Shown here in pieces: positions 6,377-26,814 of a stretch of DNA of 43,070 bases. The notes beneath the pieces are model-generated. The model was not told where the DNA came from. It did no database searches and was given only the letters and a program-made list of their open reading frames with translations. The translations under genes and the position numbers were made by a program. Source of the DNA: Caldifarciminota bacterium (GTDB lineage: Bacteria > Hydrothermota > Hydrothermia > Hydrothermales > JAJRUZ01); the NCBI GenBank assembly GCA_024277525.1, contig JAJRUZ010000084.1:1-43070 (forward strand), read 5' to 3'. Position 1 is the stretch's first letter, and each line of letters begins with the position of its first letter.

Positions 6377-9300
6377 TTATCTCCCTTTCCAGAATATAAT
6401 TTTGCTTTGATAAGGAGAAAAAGGCAAAGCAGTTTCTATTTCCACAATCCCGCCTGTCCCTGTTTGTACAAACACTTTCTCTCCTTCCGCACTTACATAT
6501 ACCGTTGGTTCTGCGGGTAATCCGGGTCCTGTTGATATAGAAGGTATGTTTTCACCCGAAGGAAGTTCACCGAGAATGGGCTCATAATATGCTGTTCCTG
6601 TGAGATAATAAAGTGCATAAAGTCTTCCTTCGCCTCCTGCTTTACACGGTGCGAATTCAGGTGTATAAGTTGTAAACAAAACACTTCCGCCTATGACAGC
6701 AGAAGATGTAATACATCTTTCTCCGGTATTCTCAAGAATTCTGTACCAGCCTTTATAAGAGGTGGTAATAAGATTCTGCAATTCTCTAAAAGTTAACACA
6801 CTTCCTCCTACTACAACACTATCAAAATTAAAAACCTGAACATTTGTTACATCCATCAAATCAATATAACTGTACATGACATCCTCATCTTTCACTCCGA
6901 CAAGGTACTGTGTCTCAAGATAATCTGCATCATCCCTTATGAAAAATCTACCCGTTCCGAAATAGACCCATATTTTTCCTGTCGCATCCATCGCAACGGA
7001 CGGAGCACCTACTATCGGTTCTCCTGCGTCAAATATAGGAATAAGCCTCCAATTAATCGGATCCGGACTGTTATTTGTTTTTATCTTATAAAGTTTTCCA
7101 CCGTATGTGAGCGTTACAGGATCCTCCAGAATGGTTGTTCCGAAATAAACTGCATCAACGGAAAAATCAATATCAAAATCAACCGAAATTATGTCTCCTA
7201 TGAAAGAGTTTGCGTCAGGCAAGGTAAAAGTCCTTATTATTTCACCAGTCTTATAATCAAGAACATAAATATGAGCATATTGATATGAATTTACATCAGA
7301 AAGTTTTGTCGGACCCGAGCCTATTATAAGATACCATGCTGTATCAACTTTAACGGTCGCAGGAAATGAGGTGGTGAAAGAAGAATCCGGAAGTCTTCTC
7401 TCCCATAAGAGAGTTATATTATCAGGGTCTGTCACATCAAGAGTAAAAAAGGCAGAGGAATATACATTTGTAAGAGTGCTACACGGTAAGCCACCGAGTC
7501 TCATACCTCCGATGATTACCGTTCCCCATCCTTCTGGATGTTTTATATCATTTGGAAAGATTTGCACATCCGTAGGATAAGGCTTTAAATCAACATAGTA
7601 AACATGACAGTATTCCGTTAAAGGAAGCCATTTCAAATGCGGTAAAAGATTAAAAGGAACATAGGCATATATTTCGCCTCCCAAAGATATTCCAGCAGGG
7701 TCAATTCTCAGAGGCTCAACATCAACTCCTGTCTCAATCAGTTTACCGGAATTAAAAACATGTAACATTCCGTCATTTGCTCCTACATAAACCGCAACCC
7801 TTCGGTCTTTATATGCATCATAGAATGTTTTATATGTTTCATCTCCATAAATTAAATCATATCTTTCTGCCGGTTCACCTACAACAAGGGGAGTTGAAAA
7901 TATAATGTCTCCGAGCTTCCATACATTTCCGTCAGGAGTTGTTCTTTTTCTTAAATTCTCAAAGTCCTCTCCCCTTATATATCTAATTAAAGTATCCGCA
8001 AAGGTTGTTCTTGAAAGGTCAAGATGAGGTAAAATTAAGTCCTTATTTAATGTGTTAAATTCAATATATTCACCCGCATCAACCCTTCCGTTAAGATTTG
8101 CATCAACAAAAGTCCATATATTCCTTCCGGATGGTGAAGTACTGAGAAGAACCTCCGAACCATCCCATACAGGTGCCAAGTCTTCAACCGGAACCCTCTC
8201 AATTTCCACAAGTGAATCTCCGTTGCCCAAGACATCCCTGTATCTTATGATATATGTTTGATTTACGGTGGTATCAAAATAAAAGGAAATTACATAATCA
8301 TTAAGAAGATTTAACCTCAGGTTGTAGTCGTTGTCTTCCCTTATAAAACCGAATTTATCAACCCATAAAGCTTTTAAAGTTCCTATCCAGTCTATATCAA
8401 TTGTACCGAAGAATCTTTTCGGATAATAAGAAGCAAATGCAGCAATACCTTCTGCTTTTGATGTCTGTGTTATAATTGAAACTGCGGTCCCGGATGTAAC
8501 CCTTGCCATTATTTCATAAATGATTTTTTTAATTGCATCTTCAAGTTCTTGTCCTGTAGTTGCTTCATAGTAACGGTCAGGGATTCCGTCACCGTCTCCG
8601 TCATACTCGTCGGGCTGCGGTATAAGGTCTCCGTTTTTGTCCTCAAACCCACCATCTTTTGCTATTTCCATAAAAAGAGTCGAGCCTGTTCCGAAAGAGA
8701 AAACTGTGTAAAACTCAATATTGTTAAAATAATCCGGTATGTCCGGTCTTACATCGGTTATATGACCGTAATAAGCATAATCATCAGCAGGATGATCATA
8801 ATCACCTGAACTCTGTGTTGTATTGCAATCCCAAGAATTCCCGTCATCATCATAATCACATAATGACCTTGAAAACGGCGGGTCATGGTCAAAATGGTTA
8901 TCCGATGTTATATTCGGGTCATCCGAATTTGACTCTCCGTCTCCTATTAATATGACAAAATTCTTCCTACAAGGAATCAGCACAAGCGAAGCTCCTTGTC
9001 CTGAATACATCGGGTCTTGCATTGAGCCTCTCCCGAAGAAGGTATATAGATTCCAGTGAGGCGGAACATAACTTATATAGTGAATTGCTTCAAGAACAGC
9101 ATTTCCGACAGGTGTTCCGCCTTCCGGATCTGTATTATTTATTGCATTCAAAAAGGGTTCCATATCAGGGTCCTCTTCTGTTTCATAAAACTCTATCGGC
9201 AAATCCCATATTCTTGTTGAAAAGAAAAACAAACCGAATCTCGGAATTTCTTTTCCTTGGTCCCAGTTACCGTCTAAATCCTTATCCGCTATTTGTCTTA

Positions 9301-9991
9301 TAACGCCCGCCTTGTATTCCACAGGAACCTTTGATACATCAACCCATGCATGATAGGTTCCGACTTCCGCCCACCTTCTTCCGCTTTCTACTTCTATTAT
9401 AATTTCATCATTTGTTCCGGGATACACTCTGGAAATCGGTTTATTAAATCTGTAATTTATACCGCCTATACTAATGGAAGGTGTAGGCCATCCCGTGACA
9501 CCCGCCTGATACCAGGAATAATAATTACTTCCTTCGGCAATCAGGGTATTTTTATCTATTAAAACAGTTGGAACACCTGCTCCGCCCGTCAAAACCCTTC
9601 TTGCAACATCAATCCTTGACATTATTGCCCAATTTAAAATATTCCCGGAAATTGAAGGACTCGTTGGATCTGCAACATTGAAATAAGTATGTGAGGTATC
9701 ATATCCCACTGCTACCCATTGAAGGGCAGAATATTGGTAAATTGAATCAGGATGAAAGTATCCGTAATAAGTAAAATCAGGGGAATATTCTCCTGTTGTG
9801 TAAGAAGTACCGCTACCGTCGGGGTCAATATCCCTGGCAGCCCTCCATAGCATTGAACCTGTCATATCAAGGGTAATCAGAACATTTGCCTTCTCAACCA
9901 TTGAAACCTGAGGCGGAGCTGAACAGGGCATTTCTTCTGCCTTTATATTTTGAAATAAAAGTATAGCAAAAATTAACATTAACTTTTTCAT
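6377..9991 (-). CDS. pilY1: PilY1-like type IV pilus tip/assembly protein
   Basis: A 1204-residue secreted protein with a signal peptide (cleavage near A18). Residues 36-47 hold the von Willebrand A metal site (D42-M-T-G-S46). Later come calcium-type loops (D-G-D-G-D-G-I-P-D, then D-A-N-L-N-G-R-V-D-A-G-E) and the PilC/PilY1 beta-propeller, marked by VYVGANDGMLHVF. PilY1 proteins sit at the pilus tip, prime pilus assembly and mediate adhesion and surface sensing. The gene is last of the minor pilin set; its ATG overlaps the stop of the PilX-like gene by one base and has a GGAGG site. Length and domain order are normal for the family. Confidence 0.9.
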   Translation of the reverse strand: MKKLMLIFAILLFQNIKAEEMPCSAPPQVSMVEKANVLITLDMTGSMLWRAARDIDPDGSGTSYTTGEYSPDFTYYGYFHPDSIYQYSALQWVAVGYDTSHTYFNVADPTSPSISGNILNWAIMSRIDVARRVLTGGAGVPTVLIDKNTLIAEGSNYYSWYQAGVTGWPTPSISIGGINYRFNKPISRVYPGTNDEIIIEVESGRRWAEVGTYHAWVDVSKVPVEYKAGVIRQIADKDLDGNWDQGKEIPRFGLFFFSTRIWDLPIEFYETEEDPDMEPFLNAINNTDPEGGTPVGNAVLEAIHYISYVPPHWNLYTFFGRGSMQDPMYSGQGASLVLIPCRKNFVILIGDGESNSDDPNITSDNHFDHDPPFSRSLCDYDDDGNSWDCNTTQSSGDYDHPADDYAYYGHITDVRPDIPDYFNNIEFYTVFSFGTGSTLFMEIAKDGGFEDKNGDLIPQPDEYDGDGDGIPDRYYEATTGQELEDAIKKIIYEIMARVTSGTAVSIITQTSKAEGIAAFASYYPKRFFGTIDIDWIGTLKALWVDKFGFIREDNDYNLRLNLLNDYVISFYFDTTVNQTYIIRYRDVLGNGDSLVEIERVPVEDLAPVWDGSEVLLSTSPSGRNIWTFVDANLNGRVDAGEYIEFNTLNKDLILPHLDLSRTTFADTLIRYIRGEDFENLRKRTTPDGNVWKLGDIIFSTPLVVGEPAERYDLIYGDETYKTFYDAYKDRRVAVYVGANDGMLHVFNSGKLIETGVDVEPLRIDPAGISLGGEIYAYVPFNLLPHLKWLPLTEYCHVYYVDLKPYPTDVQIFPNDIKHPEGWGTVIIGGMRLGGLPCSTLTNVYSSAFFTLDVTDPDNITLLWERRLPDSSFTTSFPATVKVDTAWYLIIGSGPTKLSDVNSYQYAHIYVLDYKTGEIIRTFTLPDANSFIGDIISVDFDIDFSVDAVYFGTTILEDPVTLTYGGKLYKIKTNNSPDPINWRLIPIFDAGEPIVGAPSVAMDATGKIWVYFGTGRFFIRDDADYLETQYLVGVKDEDVMYSYIDLMDVTNVQVFNFDSVVVGGSVLTFRELQNLITTSYKGWYRILENTGERCITSSAVIGGSVLFTTYTPEFAPCKAGGEGRLYALYYLTGTAYYEPILGELPSGENIPSISTGPGLPAEPTVYVSAEGEKVFVQTGTGGIVEIETALPFSPYQSKIIFWKGR

Positions 9992-19734: not shown

Positions 19735-22005
19735 TTATATCAAATTTGCTCCTATTATAATCTGTCCTACAGAAATTCCACCATCATTCGGAGGTATTCT
19801 TGAATGCATATAAACTTTTTTTCCTTTTATTTTTCTGAAAACAAGTTCTGTTAAAAGTTTGTTCTGAAAAACACCTCCGCTTAAAATAATTTTATAATTT
19901 CCCGCAATTTCACTTATTTTTTTTATGATTTCCGAAAGGGTTAAATGGAATTTATAGGCAATAAAGGATTTTTCCTTTTTATTTTTTAAATCATCAATTA
20001 TACCTTTAAATAAGAGAATCCAGTCTATGACATAATATTCATATTTTTTTATTTCAAAATCATAAAAGGAATTTAAATTACCTTTATAATTCTCTGCAAG
20101 CCATTCCAACATCATTGCCGACTGTCCCTCATAGGTTATCTTCTGTCTTAAACCCAGAATTGAAGAAACGGCATCAAAAAGACGACCCGCAGATGTTGTC
20201 CTGAATATTGAGAGATTTTTCCTGTATGCACTTTTAAAGATTTTTTTCTCATTTTCACTTAAACTTCTTACAGGCTCAAAATCCGTATCAAAAATATCTT
20301 CTCCGAAAATTTCATATAAAACCCCTATTGCACTTCTTCTCGGCTCCTTAATCGCCCTATCACCACCGAGCAAACCGAATTCCCTGAAAGTTGCAAATCT
20401 TTCAAAATCTTTAAAATCACATATTAAAAATTCACCACCCCATATCTTTCCGTCCCTTCCATATCCTGTTCCATCCCATGAAACTCCTAAAACCTTTTCC
20501 TCAGTTTTATTCTCAATCATACAGGATGCAATATGGGCGTGATGATGAAAAACCTTTATAAGAGGAATATTCTCTTTTTTACTTATTTCCTCTCCGTATT
20601 TTGTTGATAAATATTCGGGATGGGCATCACACACAATAAGCTCCGGTTTGAATTCAAAAAGTTTTTTAAAATCCTCTATGACCTTTTTAAAGGCATTGAA
20701 GGACTTTTCATTATCCAGATCACCTATATGCTGGGAAACAATTATTCTGTTAAATTTTGAAATTGCAATTGTGTTTTTCAAATAGGGACCGAGGGCAAGA
20801 ATCTGAGGAAGGGTTTTTTTTAAGATGAAGGGCATAGGAGCATAACCCCTTGCCCTTCTTGTAATCACCGGCTTTTCATTAATAATTTTCACAACAGAAT
20901 CATCAATATATCTTTCAATGGGTCTGTTGTTCATCAGAAAATAATCTGCTATATTTTTCAATCTTGAAAGAGCCTCTTCATTTTTAAAAGCAATCGGTTC
21001 TTCTGTTAAATTTCCTGATGTGCATATTAAAGGAAAATCTATTTTACTCATTATTAAATGATGTAAAGGAGTATAGGGAATCATAACCCCTATATACGGA
21101 TTATCGGGTGCGCAGTATTTTGATAAATCAGTATTCCTTTTTGCCTTGACAATTAAAATGGGTGCCTGGGGTGATAAAAGAACTTTTTCTTCAATTTCTG
21201 AAATAAAAGCATATTTTTTAATATGTTCTATATTCTTAAACATTATTGCAAAGGGTTTTTCATCCCTTTTCTTTCTTTTTCTCAATTCCAGAACACATTT
21301 GTCAGAAAGGGCATTTGTTAAAAGCTGAAAACCTCCTATTCCTTTTAATGCAATTATTTTACCTTCTTTTAAAAACTGAACGGTTTTTTCAATTGCGGAT
21401 TTTCTTTTACATATAAGTTTTCCTTCAGAATCAGTTAAATAAACATAAGGACCGCAGACAGGGCAGGCATTGGGCTGTGCATGAAATCTCCTTTCAAGGG
21501 GATTTTCATATTCTTCTTTGCATTCAGGACACATTTTAAAAATCTTCATTGTTGTATTTTTTCTGTCATAAGGAATATTTTGAATTATGCTGAATCTCGG
21601 GCCGCAATTTGTGCAGTTTGTGAAGGGATAATTAAATCTTCTGTTTTCAGAATCAAAAATTTCCTTTACACATTCATCACATGTTGCAATGTCAGGCAAA
21701 ATAAGGGCAATCTTTTCGCCTTTTTCCTCTGATTTTAAAATCAAAAAGTCTTTATCATTTTTTAAATTTATTTCTTTTATTTCAAAAAAAGTATATTCTG
21801 AAAGGGGAGGTTTTTTTGTTTTGAGGTCGGAGATAAAACTTTTTAAATCCTCTTCCTCTCCTTCAACTTCAATTAAAACTCCTTCAGGATTATTTCTTAT
21901 AAAGCCCTTTAAATTCTTTTCCTTTGCAATTCTGTAAACAAAAGGTCTGAATCCGACACCCTGGACAGTTCCCTGAATTTGAATTTTTAATCTTTTCAAG
22001 GACAT
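19735..22005 (-). CDS. hypF: Carbamoyltransferase HypF, hydrogenase maturation
   Basis: A 756-residue four-part enzyme that turns carbamoyl phosphate into the cyanide ligand precursor for the [NiFe] site. In order: an acylphosphatase domain with Q-G-V-G-F-R-P-F (1-90); a zinc-finger pair with repeated CxxC (C-D-E-C, C-T-N-C, C-P-E-C, C-P-V-C, about 105-190); a YrdC-like adenylation domain with L-K-G-I-G-G-F-Q-L (about 195-385); and a Kae1/TobZ-like domain with H-H-A-H-I-A and G-T-G-Y-G (about 390-756). Complete and of normal length. TATAAT ends 7 bases before the ATG, so it may have its own leaderless promoter at the end of the hyp cluster. HypE, its partner, is not in the window. Confidence 0.95.
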   Translation of the reverse strand: MSLKRLKIQIQGTVQGVGFRPFVYRIAKEKNLKGFIRNNPEGVLIEVEGEEEDLKSFISDLKTKKPPLSEYTFFEIKEINLKNDKDFLILKSEEKGEKIALILPDIATCDECVKEIFDSENRRFNYPFTNCTNCGPRFSIIQNIPYDRKNTTMKIFKMCPECKEEYENPLERRFHAQPNACPVCGPYVYLTDSEGKLICKRKSAIEKTVQFLKEGKIIALKGIGGFQLLTNALSDKCVLELRKRKKRDEKPFAIMFKNIEHIKKYAFISEIEEKVLLSPQAPILIVKAKRNTDLSKYCAPDNPYIGVMIPYTPLHHLIMSKIDFPLICTSGNLTEEPIAFKNEEALSRLKNIADYFLMNNRPIERYIDDSVVKIINEKPVITRRARGYAPMPFILKKTLPQILALGPYLKNTIAISKFNRIIVSQHIGDLDNEKSFNAFKKVIEDFKKLFEFKPELIVCDAHPEYLSTKYGEEISKKENIPLIKVFHHHAHIASCMIENKTEEKVLGVSWDGTGYGRDGKIWGGEFLICDFKDFERFATFREFGLLGGDRAIKEPRRSAIGVLYEIFGEDIFDTDFEPVRSLSENEKKIFKSAYRKNLSIFRTTSAGRLFDAVSSILGLRQKITYEGQSAMMLEWLAENYKGNLNSFYDFEIKKYEYYVIDWILLFKGIIDDLKNKKEKSFIAYKFHLTLSEIIKKISEIAGNYKIILSGGVFQNKLLTELVFRKIKGKKVYMHSRIPPNDGGISVGQIIIGANLI

Positions 22006-22023: not shown

Positions 22024-22575
22024 TTAAATTTCTTTGAGTATTTTCTCAAAGACCTCTACAAGGTTCCGATTTAACACTTTATTAAAAGTTCTAAGCCATT
22101 TTCGGATATATTTTTTATCAAAATCAGGATTTTTTAAAATCATTTTTCTTGCGTCCTCGATGTCAACGGGTCTTCCAGAGACAATTTTATGTATTATCAC
22201 ATCCTCCAAGGAGGCAAACTTGATATATTTTTTGCCTATCTTCACTTTTTTTACTCTTTTCATTGCTTCTTTTTCATAATCTGAAAATGAAAATATAAAA
22301 TCTATTCTTATTTTTGTCCTCTTGTCAATTACCGGAAAAACAAAAGTTTTTTTTACAAATTCCCTATGATTTTTAATAAGCGCAGAAAAGTTTAATTTTT
22401 TACATATTTTTTCTATTCTTTCTATTTCTGAAGGTGTTAAGTTGAGCGTTATATCAATATCTTTTGTAAGTCTCGGTTCTCCGTATATAAGAACTGCCTG
22501 TCCTCCTATTATCATATATGAAATTTTATCTTTATCCAGTTCTCTTCCGATTTTTTCAAGAAGTGTCCTAAACAC
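22024..22575 (-). CDS. Nucleotidyltransferase-fold protein (MNT/AbiEii-like)
   Basis: A 183-residue protein with the minimal nucleotidyltransferase signature: I-I-G-G-Q-A-V-L-I-Y-G, then R-L-T-K-D-I-D-I (the two metal-binding Asp residues) near residue 40. The remainder resembles DUF6036/AbiEii-type proteins. It starts with GTG at 22573-22575 and overlaps the 64-residue partner gene by 8 bases. Such pairs resemble nucleotidyltransferase toxin-antitoxin modules but can also be solitary housekeeping pairs. It is inserted between hypB and hypF, with no known role in hydrogenase maturation. Confidence 0.7.
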   Translation of the reverse strand: MFRTLLEKIGRELDKDKISYMIIGGQAVLIYGEPRLTKDIDITLNLTPSEIERIEKICKKLNFSALIKNHREFVKKTFVFPVIDKRTKIRIDFIFSFSDYEKEAMKRVKKVKIGKKYIKFASLEDVIIHKIVSGRPVDIEDARKMILKNPDFDKKYIRKWLRTFNKVLNRNLVEVFEKILKEI

Positions 22576-22762
22576 CGTTAATCACCCTCGCATATTCAAT
22601 ATCTTTTTCAATATCCTCAAGCGGATTTTTTAAAGGAAAAATTTTAAGAAATCTTGCTTCTTCGTACAGAGCCTCAACCACTTCAAAATTTTCTTTTATA
22701 CTGTTTTTCTTTTTATATATTTCCCTTTCGAACTTTTTCCATGTTTTATTGTTCTTAATCAT
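22568..22762 (-). CDS. Small partner protein of the nucleotidyltransferase
   Basis: A 64-residue charged, helical protein. It contains N-F-E-V-V-E-A-L-Y-E-E-A and F-P-L-K-N-P-L-E, a pattern I associate with small ORFs placed just before nucleotidyltransferase genes in thermophilic bacteria. Its ATG overlaps the hypB stop as ATGA and its end overlaps the next gene, so three genes are translationally chained. It could be an antitoxin-like or substrate-presenting partner. No proven function. Confidence 0.6.
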   Translation of the reverse strand: MIKNNKTWKKFEREIYKKKNSIKENFEVVEALYEEARFLKIFPLKNPLEDIEKDIEYARVINGV

Positions 22763-23421
22763 TTCATTATTTTTTCTTTAGCATTTTTTATAAAATCCAC
22801 AACTTCTTTTATTCCTTCATTTTTAAGGGCAGAAATAAAGAAAATTATCAGTTCTTTTTTTATTTTAAAAATATCCTGTTTAACTTTTTCAGAATCAAAG
22901 GATAAATAAGGCAGAAGGTCTGTTTTATTTATAATTATTGCATCAGCAGTTAAAAATGCTTTCGGATATTTCAAAATCTTATCATCTCCTTCTGGTGTTG
23001 AAATTATAACTATTCTCAAATGTTCACCTAAATTATAAGAAGCAGGACATACTAAATTTCCAACATTTTCAATGAAAAGATACTCTGTATCTTCCGGAAT
23101 CAAACTTAAAGCCTGTTTTATCATTATTGCTTCCAGATGACAAACACCTTGGGTCACTATTTGAAATGCTCTAATTTTTGCTTTCCTTAATCTTTGCGCA
23201 TCCCTTTCTGTCTGAACATCACCCACCAAGACACATATCTTCTCTTTTTCGAAATAGTGAGCAAGTTTTTCAATTAATGTAGTCTTTCCCGAACCCGGGG
23301 AAGATAGCATATTTATCACAAAAATCTTTTTTTTATTGAAAAAATCCCTTAATTCTTTTGCAATTGCCTCATTTGCCTTTAAAAGTGAAATTGAAACATT
23401 TTCCGAAATTATTTCAGGCAT
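22759..23421 (-). CDS. hypB: Hydrogenase nickel incorporation GTPase HypB
   Basis: A 220-residue SIMIBI-class GTPase that delivers nickel to the hydrogenase large subunit together with HypA. The P-loop S-S-P-G-S-G-K-T-T-L is near residue 40; G-D-V-Q-T-E-R-D-A (switch), N-V-G-N-L-V-C-P-A (metal-site Cys) and N-K-T-D-L-L (guanine specificity) follow in order. There is no N-terminal His-rich nickel-storage stretch. hypA lies 15 bases upstream. No Shine-Dalgarno site is obvious, so coupling to hypA is likely. Confidence 0.93.
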   Translation of the reverse strand: MPEIISENVSISLLKANEAIAKELRDFFNKKKIFVINMLSSPGSGKTTLIEKLAHYFEKEKICVLVGDVQTERDAQRLRKAKIRAFQIVTQGVCHLEAIMIKQALSLIPEDTEYLFIENVGNLVCPASYNLGEHLRIVIISTPEGDDKILKYPKAFLTADAIIINKTDLLPYLSFDSEKVKQDIFKIKKELIIFFISALKNEGIKEVVDFIKNAKEKIMK

Positions 23422-23436
23422 TGTTAAATTTATACT

Positions 23437-23778
23437 CTACGGAACGATGAATTCAATCCTTTTTATCATAAGTGAATCACCTTTAATTATTTTACCGCCG
23501 AATTCTTCACATTCAGGACACTGAAAGGGAAAGGTATCAGGCTGAAACACCTTACCACAATTTTCACATTCTATTTCTATTTCCTGCATGTGTATATCCA
23601 GTTTCGCCTCCTCAAATTCGGTTCCCTTTTTCAAGGCTTCAAATGCCTCTTTTAAAAGAACAGGTTCTGCACCCGATATTTTTCCAACTTCAATTTCTAT
23701 CTTTAATATTTTTGCCTGCCTTTGAATTTTCTCCTTTACTATCTCAAAAAGATTCTGAATCAAAGAAAATTCATGCAT
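23437..23778 (-). CDS. hypA: Hydrogenase nickel incorporation protein HypA
   Basis: A 113-residue metallochaperone. It begins M-H-E, with His2 as the conserved nickel ligand, and carries a zinc-binding loop of two CxxC pairs (C-E-N-C and C-P-E-C) in its second half. It works with HypB to insert nickel into the large subunit. The gene lies 3 bases from the end of the maturation protease gene and 15 from hypB. Confidence 0.93.
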   Translation of the reverse strand: MHEFSLIQNLFEIVKEKIQRQAKILKIEIEVGKISGAEPVLLKEAFEALKKGTEFEEAKLDIHMQEIEIECENCGKVFQPDTFPFQCPECEEFGGKIIKGDSLMIKRIEFIVP

Positions 23779-23781
23779 GAT

Positions 23782-24222
23782 TCATAATTTTTTATAATAT
23801 TTGAGAAAGATGTCTTTAAGAAAACAGAGTTTTTCTTTTAATTCAGGAGATAACCCGAGACCGGGAGCAATTGACATGGGTCTTATTCCGAACACAAAAA
23901 TTCTCTTCGGAGATTTACCCATGAGTTCAAGGATTCCTATTAATTCCCTTATACCTATTTCATGAAAGGAAAACTTTACGGGTATCTTTTTATCTTTTAT
24001 TTCAAACCAGACAAATTCTTCTGGATAATCCATTCTTATTGCATCCACAAAAATCACACAATCTTTGTTTTCAATTTCAGAAACCAGGGAAAGATTTATA
24101 TTACCTGCTTCTATAACATCCGCATCAGGAATTTCTTTTTTAATATAATTTACAAAATAAGTTCCCACTCCCTCATCCTGCATTAACGGGTTTCCTATAC
24201 CTATAATCAGTTTTTTCCTTAT
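23782..24222 (-). CDS. Hydrogenase maturation endopeptidase with apparent ATA start
   Basis: A 146-residue HyaD/HybD/HycI-type protease that trims the C-terminus of the large subunit after nickel insertion. From 24222 the frame reads (M)RKKLIIGIGNPLMQDEGVG, the family's N-terminus, with nickel-ligand Glu17; further ligands are the Asp in F-V-D-A-I-R-M-D and the His in S-F-H-E-I-G. ATG 24183 would remove the first strand with G-I-G-N. Between the upstream in-frame TAA and this point no ATG, GTG or TTG exists. ATA at 24220-24222 stands in the start position, with AAGGA seven bases before it. Ten bases separate it from the large-subunit stop. Confidence 0.85.
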   Translation of the reverse strand: MRKKLIIGIGNPLMQDEGVGTYFVNYIKKEIPDADVIEAGNINLSLVSEIENKDCVIFVDAIRMDYPEEFVWFEIKDKKIPVKFSFHEIGIRELIGILELMGKSPKRIFVFGIRPMSIAPGLGLSPELKEKLCFLKDIFLKYYKKL

Positions 24223-24232
24223 ACCCTTTTCC

Positions 24233-25822
24233 TTAAATTGCTTTTATTTTATATACTTCATTTGTTTCAGGGTCAATTACATGAACCGCACATGCAATAC
24301 ACGGGTCAAAGGAATGCACAACCCTTAAAATTTCAAGGGGTTTCTTCGGGTCTGCAACAGGTGTTCCGAGCAATGCTGTTTCGAGCGGTCCTTTTTGTCC
24401 TTTATCATCTCTTGGACACGCATTCCAGGTTGTAGGCACCACGCATTGATAATTTTCTATTTTATAATTCTTTATTCTCACCCAGTGTCCGAGTGCACCC
24501 CTGGGTGCTTCCCATAATCCCACACCCTCTCCGTTTTTCGGAATCTTATAATCATTAAATACCTTTACATTTCCTTTTTTCACTTCTTCTACAAGTTCAT
24601 TAATCCATTCTTCCATTTTTTCTGCAATGATTTTTGATTCAATGACCCTTGCTGCAAGTCTTCCGACTACGGATTTAAGAATTCCGATATTTCCTTTTTG
24701 TCCGAGTTTTTCAAGAAGGGTATCAACCTCTCTTTTAACCGGTTCAACACCTTTTAAATATGCAATAAGCACCCGTGCCAAAGGACCCACTTCCATGGGC
24801 TTTCCTTTATATCTCGGTGCCTTTAACCAGGAATATGTGGTATCCGTGTCATATTTCTTATATTCCGGTTCGGTGCGTCCTTTCTTTGGATTTAAGGGTT
24901 TTGTGTATTTATAAAAGGAATGTTTTACATGTTCGGTAACCTCATCAGGAGAGACATTTTCAACCTTCATTTTTTCTTTGAATACCGCACCGCTGGGCAA
25001 TAATCTTTTTTCCATTTTTCTTGATTTGTCATCAAAAACACCCCATGAAAGATAATTCTCAACACCCTTTCCGATTTTTGCCCATTCAAGATAATAGGGA
25101 GCAAGAGCAAGCAAGTCTTGATACATAACCTTATTCACAAAGTCCTTAATTTTTTGAAGTTTATACATAAAGGTTCTGATTTCCCTTATTTCCGGAATCT
25201 TCGTTAATCCGCCCGGCGGGGTATTCATGTGCATGGGCATTTTACCTCCGAAAATGGCGGTAAGTTTTGATGCCTCTGCCTGTATTTCAAGTGCCTTTAA
25301 ATAATGGGAAACAACCAGGAGATTCAGATCAGGAGGAAGTTTATATTCAGGATGACCCCAGTAACCGTTTGTAAATGGACCGAGTTGACCTGCTTCAACA
25401 AAACTATTTAATTTTTGTTTTAATTCCTTGAGGGATTTTTCTTTCGGTTCTGCTTTGAGTGCGGATACAATGTCAACATAATCAAGACCGTTGAGATGAT
25501 AGAACCATAAAATATGAGAATGAAGATACTGCGTTCCTTCAATTAAGTTTCTTACAATCCTTGCAATTTCAGGTGGTTCAACATTAAATGCTTTTTCAAG
25601 TGCAAAAACGGATGTCAAACCATGCGGGATAGGACATACCCCGCAAATTCTCTGTGTAATAATCCATGCATCCCTGGGGTCCCTTCCCTTTAATATTATT
25701 TCAATTCCCCTGAAGAGTGTACCGGAACTCCATGCATTTTTTACCTTACCTTTTTCAATTTCAACCTCAATTCTTAAATGTCCTTCAATTCTTGTTATCG
25801 GGTCAATTATTAATTTTGTCAT
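24233..25822 (-). CDS. [NiFe] hydrogenase large subunit, group 1-like
   Basis: A 529-residue catalytic subunit for hydrogen oxidation. The N-terminal RICGVC provides two nickel Cys ligands (C60, C63); the C-terminal DPCIACAVH supplies the other two (C508, C511). The last 15 residues after H514 form the extension removed by the neighbouring protease. All four ligands are Cys; none is a selenocysteine codon. The protein is carried across the membrane with the Tat-signal small subunit. A GGGAGG site inside the end of the small-subunit gene drives its start. No cytochrome b gene is adjacent. Confidence 0.95.
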   Translation of the reverse strand: MTKLIIDPITRIEGHLRIEVEIEKGKVKNAWSSGTLFRGIEIILKGRDPRDAWIITQRICGVCPIPHGLTSVFALEKAFNVEPPEIARIVRNLIEGTQYLHSHILWFYHLNGLDYVDIVSALKAEPKEKSLKELKQKLNSFVEAGQLGPFTNGYWGHPEYKLPPDLNLLVVSHYLKALEIQAEASKLTAIFGGKMPMHMNTPPGGLTKIPEIREIRTFMYKLQKIKDFVNKVMYQDLLALAPYYLEWAKIGKGVENYLSWGVFDDKSRKMEKRLLPSGAVFKEKMKVENVSPDEVTEHVKHSFYKYTKPLNPKKGRTEPEYKKYDTDTTYSWLKAPRYKGKPMEVGPLARVLIAYLKGVEPVKREVDTLLEKLGQKGNIGILKSVVGRLAARVIESKIIAEKMEEWINELVEEVKKGNVKVFNDYKIPKNGEGVGLWEAPRGALGHWVRIKNYKIENYQCVVPTTWNACPRDDKGQKGPLETALLGTPVADPKKPLEILRVVHSFDPCIACAVHVIDPETNEVYKIKAI

Positions 25823-25827
25823 TTTAT

Positions 25828-26814
25828 TTACCTCCCTTTAATTTTATGAGGGATTAGTTCATGACAATCCGTACATGTTGCTCCTTCCGGAATTTCAATT
25901 AAAGGCAGTGCGACATAGAAGGGCATGAATTTATCCGGGAAACCGGGTTCCACACATCCTATGCACGGTGAACCTGCTCCCACACACCAGTTTACCCTTC
26001 CGTTCCATTTAACAATCGGGCAATTTGAATAGGTTTCAGGTCCTTTACATCCCAATTTATGAAGGCAGTAATTCTGATTTATGACCACATCTCCGAATTT
26101 TTCCGCATATTCTCCGTTATCATAATGAGCCCTTCTTTCACAGGCATCATGTACCCTTTCACCGTAAATTTTCTTGGGTCTCCCGTATCTGTCAAGTTCG
26201 GGAACCCTTCCGAACATGAGAACATGAACAATAACAGAAAGAACCCATTCCGGATTAACAGGACAACCCGGAAGATTCACACATTTTATTTTTAAAGCCT
26301 CTGCAACTCCTTTTGCACCCGAGGGATTGGGTTTTGCTGACGGAATCCCGCCGAAGGAAGCACATGCACCGATTGCAAGAACTTTTTTTGCTTTTGAAGC
26401 AACCTCCTTTGCAATTTCCAGCATATCTTTTCCTGCTATTGTTCCGTATCCTTTTTTTGTCGGAATTGCACCTTCAATTATGCAGATATAACCTCCCTGT
26501 TTTACAAATTCTTCAATAATGCTTTCTGCGGATTCACCTGCAGGAGCCATGATTGTTTCATTAGAATCAAGGGAAATAATATCCAAAACAATTTTTGCAA
26601 TTGAAGGAGATTCTGCTTTAATAAAACTTTCGGTGCAACCTGTGCATGCAGCGAAATTGAGCCATAAAACAGAGGGTTTTTTCATTGCCTTTTCAAGAGC
26701 ATGGGCAATTTCCGGAATCCATAGTTTTGAAAGCCCGAGAAGGGCCGTGATTTTCCCGCAAAGGGCTAAGAACTCCCTGCGGGAATAATTTTCTATTTTA
26801 GAAATTTTAGCCAT
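25828..26814 (-). CDS. [NiFe] hydrogenase small subunit with Tat signal and C-terminal CxxCH
   Basis: A 328-residue iron-sulfur subunit. The N-terminus has a Tat motif (S11-R-R-E-F-L) and hydrophobic stretch. The proximal cluster begins at C57-T-G-C60, with later ligands in G-A-C-A-S and P-G-C-P; the distal ligands are near H-D-A-C-E-R-R and Y-C-L-H-K-L-G-C. The medial cluster Cys are C265, C284 and C287, plus a Cys at 277 where [3Fe-4S] enzymes have Pro. Instead of the usual C-terminal membrane helix, the protein ends in C314-T-D-C-H318 with a further His at 323, a covalent haem c motif in a protein that is exported. First gene of the hydrogenase operon, with a GGAGGG site. Confidence 0.93.
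   Translation of the reverse strand: MAKISKIENYSRREFLALCGKITALLGLSKLWIPEIAHALEKAMKKPSVLWLNFAACTGCTESFIKAESPSIAKIVLDIISLDSNETIMAPAGESAESIIEEFVKQGGYICIIEGAIPTKKGYGTIAGKDMLEIAKEVASKAKKVLAIGACASFGGIPSAKPNPSGAKGVAEALKIKCVNLPGCPVNPEWVLSVIVHVLMFGRVPELDRYGRPKKIYGERVHDACERRAHYDNGEYAEKFGDVVINQNYCLHKLGCKGPETYSNCPIVKWNGRVNWCVGAGSPCIGCVEPGFPDKFMPFYVALPLIEIPEGATCTDCHELIPHKIKGR

Follow-up and report, generated by a model that had tools for sequence, protein, structure and literature searches.

A CxxCH motif in the C-terminal tail of a periplasmic-type [NiFe] hydrogenase small subunit is a candidate haem c site

The small subunit of a [NiFe] hydrogenase from a Caldifarciminota bacterium ends in a short tail that contains the sequence CTDCH. 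The tail is real and a haem function for it is plausible, on the strength of one sequence. We read the enzyme as a soluble, Tat-exported periplasmic hydrogenase resembling those of Desulfovibrio, with a tail that may carry one covalent c-type haem, and from the sequence we give this reading a probability of about 0.52. We put it at roughly even odds that such a built-in haem would act as a fourth relay past the distal cluster and wire the enzyme into a multihaem network without a cytochrome subunit.

The gene lies in the window, by which we mean the whole 43,070-nucleotide stretch of DNA that was analysed. Its features are the following.

25828..26814, minus strand: [NiFe] hydrogenase small subunit, 328 aa (TIGR00391, PF14720, PF01058, PDB match 1h2a)
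25831..25914, minus strand: 28-residue tail (residues 301 to 328) after the conserved FMPFY, from an alignment of 111 small subunits and a tail survey
25861..25875, minus strand: CTDCH, residues 314 to 318, candidate covalent haem c site, from the translation and a chance estimate
25846..25848, minus strand: His323, possible second axial ligand (unproven), from the sequence only
25984..25986, minus strand: codon of Cys277, fourth medial-cluster Cys, from the alignment of 111 small subunits

The protein exceeded the curated model cut-offs for a [NiFe] hydrogenase small subunit. It scored 316.4 bits with TIGR00391 (cut-off, 179.5) and 115.6 with PF14720 (cut-off, 27), and it also matched PF01058. 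The top PDB match was 1h2a, from D. vulgaris, with an E value of 2e-85. The C terminus reads VALPLIEIPEGATCTDCHELIPHKIKGR, also written ...GFPDKFMPFYVALPLIEIPEGATCTDCHELIPHKIKGR, and translation of the open reading frame confirmed the CTDCH at residues 314 to 318 and the His323 that the original prediction had placed in the tail. The tail is short and charged, and it ends at a stop codon at 25828. The ATG of the large subunit is at 25822, with 5 bases between it and that stop codon, and the Shine-Dalgarno-like GGGAGG of the large subunit overlaps the final codons of the small-subunit gene. Therefore, the small-subunit gene is complete, with no truncation and no room for a lost helix. A frameshift or a lost membrane helix was ruled out from the DNA, in which the frame is intact to the stop codon. 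The hydrogenase with the CTDCH tail is the sole copy in its genome.

The large-subunit gene and a set of maturation genes follow on the same strand where a strand is given.

24233..25822, minus strand: large subunit of the [NiFe] hydrogenase (529 aa); motifs RICGVC and, at the C terminus, DPCIACAVH (NF033181, PF00374)
23782..24183, minus strand: hydrogenase maturation endopeptidase (TIGR00072, 79.6 bits, cut-off 47.45)
23437..23778, minus strand: HypA nickel insertion protein (PF01155, above the cut-off)
22759..23421, minus strand: HypB-like GTPase, named from its sequence and operon position
22024-22575: nucleotidyltransferase-like open reading frame between the hypB-like and hypF-like genes, named from its sequence and position
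19735..22005, minus strand: HypF-like carbamoyltransferase, named from its operon position and its sequence, which has Cys-rich zinc motifs and begins like an acylphosphatase

The large subunit scored 645.6 bits with NF033181, against a cut-off of 600. Its nickel site contains Cys in DPCIACAVH, and the reading frame has no internal TGA. A selenocysteine enzyme was ruled out, because the nickel site has Cys and not Sec; the NiFeSe models scored well under their cut-offs on this hydrogenase. Upstream of the small subunit is a divergent aminotransferase-like gene, and we found no cytochrome b gene among the neighboring open reading frames on either side. The original statement that no cytochrome b gene is adjacent thus holds for the operon but does not extend to the genome as a whole, where PF01292 cytochromes b are encoded beside multihaem cytochrome genes, away from the hydrogenase. 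Elsewhere in the window, positions 6377-9991 encode a 1,204-aa PilY1-type-like pilus protein that adjoins type IV pilin-like genes.

The N terminus of the small subunit carries a twin-arginine motif, S-R-R-E-F-L, which lines up with the Tat signal of the D. vulgaris enzyme (1h2a). The score of 14.8 bits with the Tat HMM was slightly below the cut-off of 16.7. The Tat-type signal that had been predicted was thus borne out by the motif, and the small subunit is apparently exported by this route. The predicted lack of a C-terminal membrane helix also stood. Only 28 residues follow FMPFY before the stop codon, which leaves no space for a helix, and in the alignment of 111 small subunits and the tail survey the tail begins where anchored relatives run on into their C-terminal helix. 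The enzyme thus has a Tat signal (with the Tat HMM below its cut-off), a helix-free C terminus and an operon free of cytochrome b, which are group 1b-like traits. However, a further trait of that group, a Pro at the fourth medial position with a [3Fe-4S] cluster, is replaced here by Cys277.

We examined the ligands of the Fe-S clusters by alignment with D. vulgaris. The proximal ligands (C57, C60, C151 and C184), the distal ligands (H222, C225, C250 and C256) and the medial ligands (C265, C284 and C287) are all present. These columns were invariant across the 111 aligned small subunits, except for the C60 column, which has Asn in 48 relatives. Because the full set of usual ligands lies upstream of the tail, the usual clusters do not need the Cys pair in the tail; ordinary Fe-S ligation by the tail cysteines was ruled out on the same alignment. 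The proximal motif, CTGC, we take to be of the standard kind and not of the O2-tolerant type. Residue 277 is a Pro in 104 of the 111 nearer relatives and a Cys in the enzyme studied here. The other six Cys at this position belong to a set of homologues, L015-L020, that come from Eggerthellaceae or Adlercreutzia apart from one bin, and in the more distant enzymes of a separate alignment (A1) the residue is nearly always a Cys. According to a summary in PMC3701524, the P238C substitution in D. fructosovorans converted the medial [3Fe-4S] cluster to a [4Fe-4S] cluster and raised H2 evolution about two-fold. Since Cys277 is equivalent to that substitution, we predict a medial [4Fe-4S] cluster in the enzyme.

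The original prediction had cautioned that a five-residue motif can arise by chance. CxxCH was found once in the 35 main open reading frames (12,695 aa) of the window, as the CTDCH of the small subunit. The number expected in a 28-aa tail was 2.8e-5 when the composition of the window was used and about 1.1e-3 when the small subunit was shuffled, the latter being higher because this protein is rich in Cys. A CxxCH anywhere in the shuffled small subunit occurred in 1.6% of cases. A chance origin of the motif is therefore unlikely. However, the caution keeps some force, because a chance origin is conceivable, and not absurd, for a motif that was chosen by a scan of many genes.

We then looked for relatives that share the tail. 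Homologues of the small subunit were present in 13 of the 147 genomes of the same phylum, the source genome included, with a best identity of about 52%. The tails in the other genomes are long, helix-like and without CxxCH, except in one homologue with 35% identity and an internal stop (L014). Three sampled genomes of the same family had no homologue. Five further search centers gave homologues with about 39 to 51% identity. In all, about 1,900 genomes around six centers were searched, with the phyla where relatives would be likeliest (sulfate reducers and the like) lying outside this set, and none of them had a homologue with more than 52% identity or one whose alignment reached into the CxxCH. 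Viral contigs had no small-subunit homologue, and homologues on plasmids were all below 60% identity. A contig search with the single protein, the peptides of which discriminate poorly, recovered mainly distant group 1 enzymes. Across all loci, CxxCH occurred in 1 of 222 distinct small-subunit tails. The other 221 come from homologues with at most 52% identity, and the better-matching ones are mostly of the membrane-anchored, helix-bearing type; therefore, they cannot serve as a proper orthologue comparison. Selection on the CxxCH is not demonstrable from this set, because none of the relatives found in the genomes searched has the tail. In the tree, the small subunit stands alone on a long branch and groups weakly with L015-L020 (support, 0.81); by distance, it is nearest to that of D. 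vulgaris.

The original prediction had also called for a check for cytochrome c maturation genes, and this check, which took in PF01578 proteins and left CcmA, B, E, G and H outside, turned up three proteins. Two are of the CcmF/NrfE type and carry PF16327, the CcmF C-terminal domain; the third is CcmC-like. All three scored under the NCBIfam cut-offs. The objection that the genome might have no maturation system at all thus falls away. A CcmF/NrfE-type lyase, at G000:C10:1-2167 (L116), is cut by the contig end; beside it is encoded a small protein that has one CxxCH and, close to the C terminus, a hydrophobic segment. The genome also encodes clusters of multihaem cytochromes on contigs C9, C25 and C72, with 4 to 18 CxxCH per protein and dozens overall. 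The multihaem loci are as follows.

G000:C9:59000-70500: multihaem cytochrome locus (L113)
G000:C25:66000-72200: multihaem cytochrome locus (L114)
G000:C72:26000-31000: multihaem cytochrome locus (L115)
G000:C9:2794-4965: multihaem cytochrome locus (L265)

The multihaem genes on C9 are surrounded by NrfD-like, Rieske-type and cytochrome b genes, an NrfH-like protein is encoded as well, and one multihaem cytochrome of the genome carries an identical CTDCH. This set suggests a complex chain of electron carriers, periplasmic or extracellular. Genes for branched-chain amino acid-type periplasmic binding protein-like products adjoin the multihaem genes at L265:1673-2797 and L113:5509-6348.

Several known systems resemble the enzyme in part. 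The periplasmic [NiFe] hydrogenases of Desulfovibrio (1h2a, and 4upe from D. fructosovorans) have the Tat signal, the soluble two-subunit form and the cluster ligands in common with it, and their small subunit likewise ends shortly past the conserved PFY. However, their medial cluster has a Pro and they lack a CxxCH tail, whereas the enzyme studied here has Cys277 and its 28-residue tail. Desulfovibrio hydrogenases donate electrons to type I cytochrome c3. The membrane-anchored group 1 uptake enzymes (Hya/Hyb type), including those of the same phylum, belong to the same small-subunit family with about 50% identity, but they have a C-terminal segment like a membrane helix where our enzyme has the CxxCH tail. 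The L015-L020 enzymes (Eggerthellaceae type) share its medial Cys and the weak tree grouping, but their small-subunit reading frames span 429 to 451 aa, extend far at the C terminus and contain no CxxCH. As in Ccm-matured c-type cytochromes, a CxxCH lies in an apparently exported protein, judging here by the Tat motif, and CcmF-type lyases are encoded in the genome; however, those cytochromes are exported by Sec, whereas this enzyme is probably exported by Tat and has a short tail in place of a cytochrome c domain. Finally, the [NiFeSe] enzymes of sulfate reducers have a Cys at the medial position and a [4Fe-4S] cluster there (PMC3701524), as is predicted for our enzyme, but the selenocysteine of their large subunit is absent here. 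We found no description in the open-access literature of a haem motif in the small subunit of a [NiFe] hydrogenase, a search which leaves most subscription journals outside.

We propose the following route. Electrons from H2 would pass from the NiFe site to the proximal [4Fe-4S] cluster and the medial cluster, which is probably [4Fe-4S], then to the distal His-ligated [4Fe-4S] cluster, the tail haem and the multihaem cytochromes, or would run in reverse. Group 1 [NiFe] hydrogenases are usually said to hand their electrons to a separate protein, which is a cytochrome b in the membrane or a soluble cytochrome c3; in anchored enzymes, the helix lies beside the cytochrome b, whose haem accepts electrons from the distal cluster. 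The complex of E. coli Hyd-1 includes its cytochrome b (PMC4771823). In the enzyme studied here, the tail would replace both the membrane helix and the cytochrome b of the anchored relatives as the exit point. The original proposal of a built-in haem is supported in part, by an apparently exported, helix-free subunit with an intact frame, a canonical CxxCH with a spare Cys pair, haem lyases and multihaem cytochromes. The attachment itself we infer, together with export, the distance from the haem to the distal cluster, the partner and the direction of electron flow. His323 is a possible second axial ligand but not an assured one, because it lies only five residues past His318. An AlphaFold model of the small subunit had a mean pLDDT of 61.9, and about 25 to 35 in the tail, which is too poor to give a haem distance.

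The main objection to a tail haem is that Tat carries folded proteins, whereas haem joins an unfolded apocytochrome. The tail would have to stay open after Tat export, and if flexible it might remain accessible; the Ccm system requires little more than CxxCH. This objection lends weight to another account, in which an ordinary soluble periplasmic [NiFe] hydrogenase passes electrons from its distal cluster directly to a multihaem cytochrome, and the CxxCH is accidental or free of haem. The best solved relatives, the Desulfovibrio enzymes, have no such tail; the motif is unique among the 222 distinct tails; and the genome offers many candidate partner cytochromes. However, the chance of the tail motif is only 3e-5 to 1e-3, and an organism that encodes Ccm-type haem lyases should make use of a CxxCH that is exported and exposed. 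We consider direct transfer rather unlikely.

The Cys-x-x-Cys-His(-x4-His) sequence may instead bind zinc or iron (a mononuclear site or a small Fe-S cluster) or form a disulphide, as a structural or docking element. Its spacing is compatible with a Cys2His2-like site, and the tail is short and charged. We regard this as quite improbable, because a periplasmic CxxCH is as a rule a haem site in organisms that possess Ccm-type haem lyases, and the tail matches no metal-binding family. It is less probable still that the tail is a functionless remnant of a lost membrane helix or an assembly artefact. The tail does come from a single genome, a draft of 102 contigs, but the frame is intact and runs without a frameshift to a stop codon that overlaps the large-subunit ribosome-binding site, and a helix would not fit in; this makes such an origin very doubtful.

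If the tail carries a covalent haem as we propose, the enzyme would represent a minimal hydrogenase-cytochrome fusion that occurs in nature, and haem addition would be possible on the short tail of a folded metalloenzyme exported by Tat. It would also offer a simple design for connecting hydrogenases with cytochromes or electrodes. With this tail, known from one genome, the hydrogenase would bring its own plug for the haem wiring of the cell, and a bacterium rich in multihaem cytochromes would use H2 as electron donor or release it as a product.
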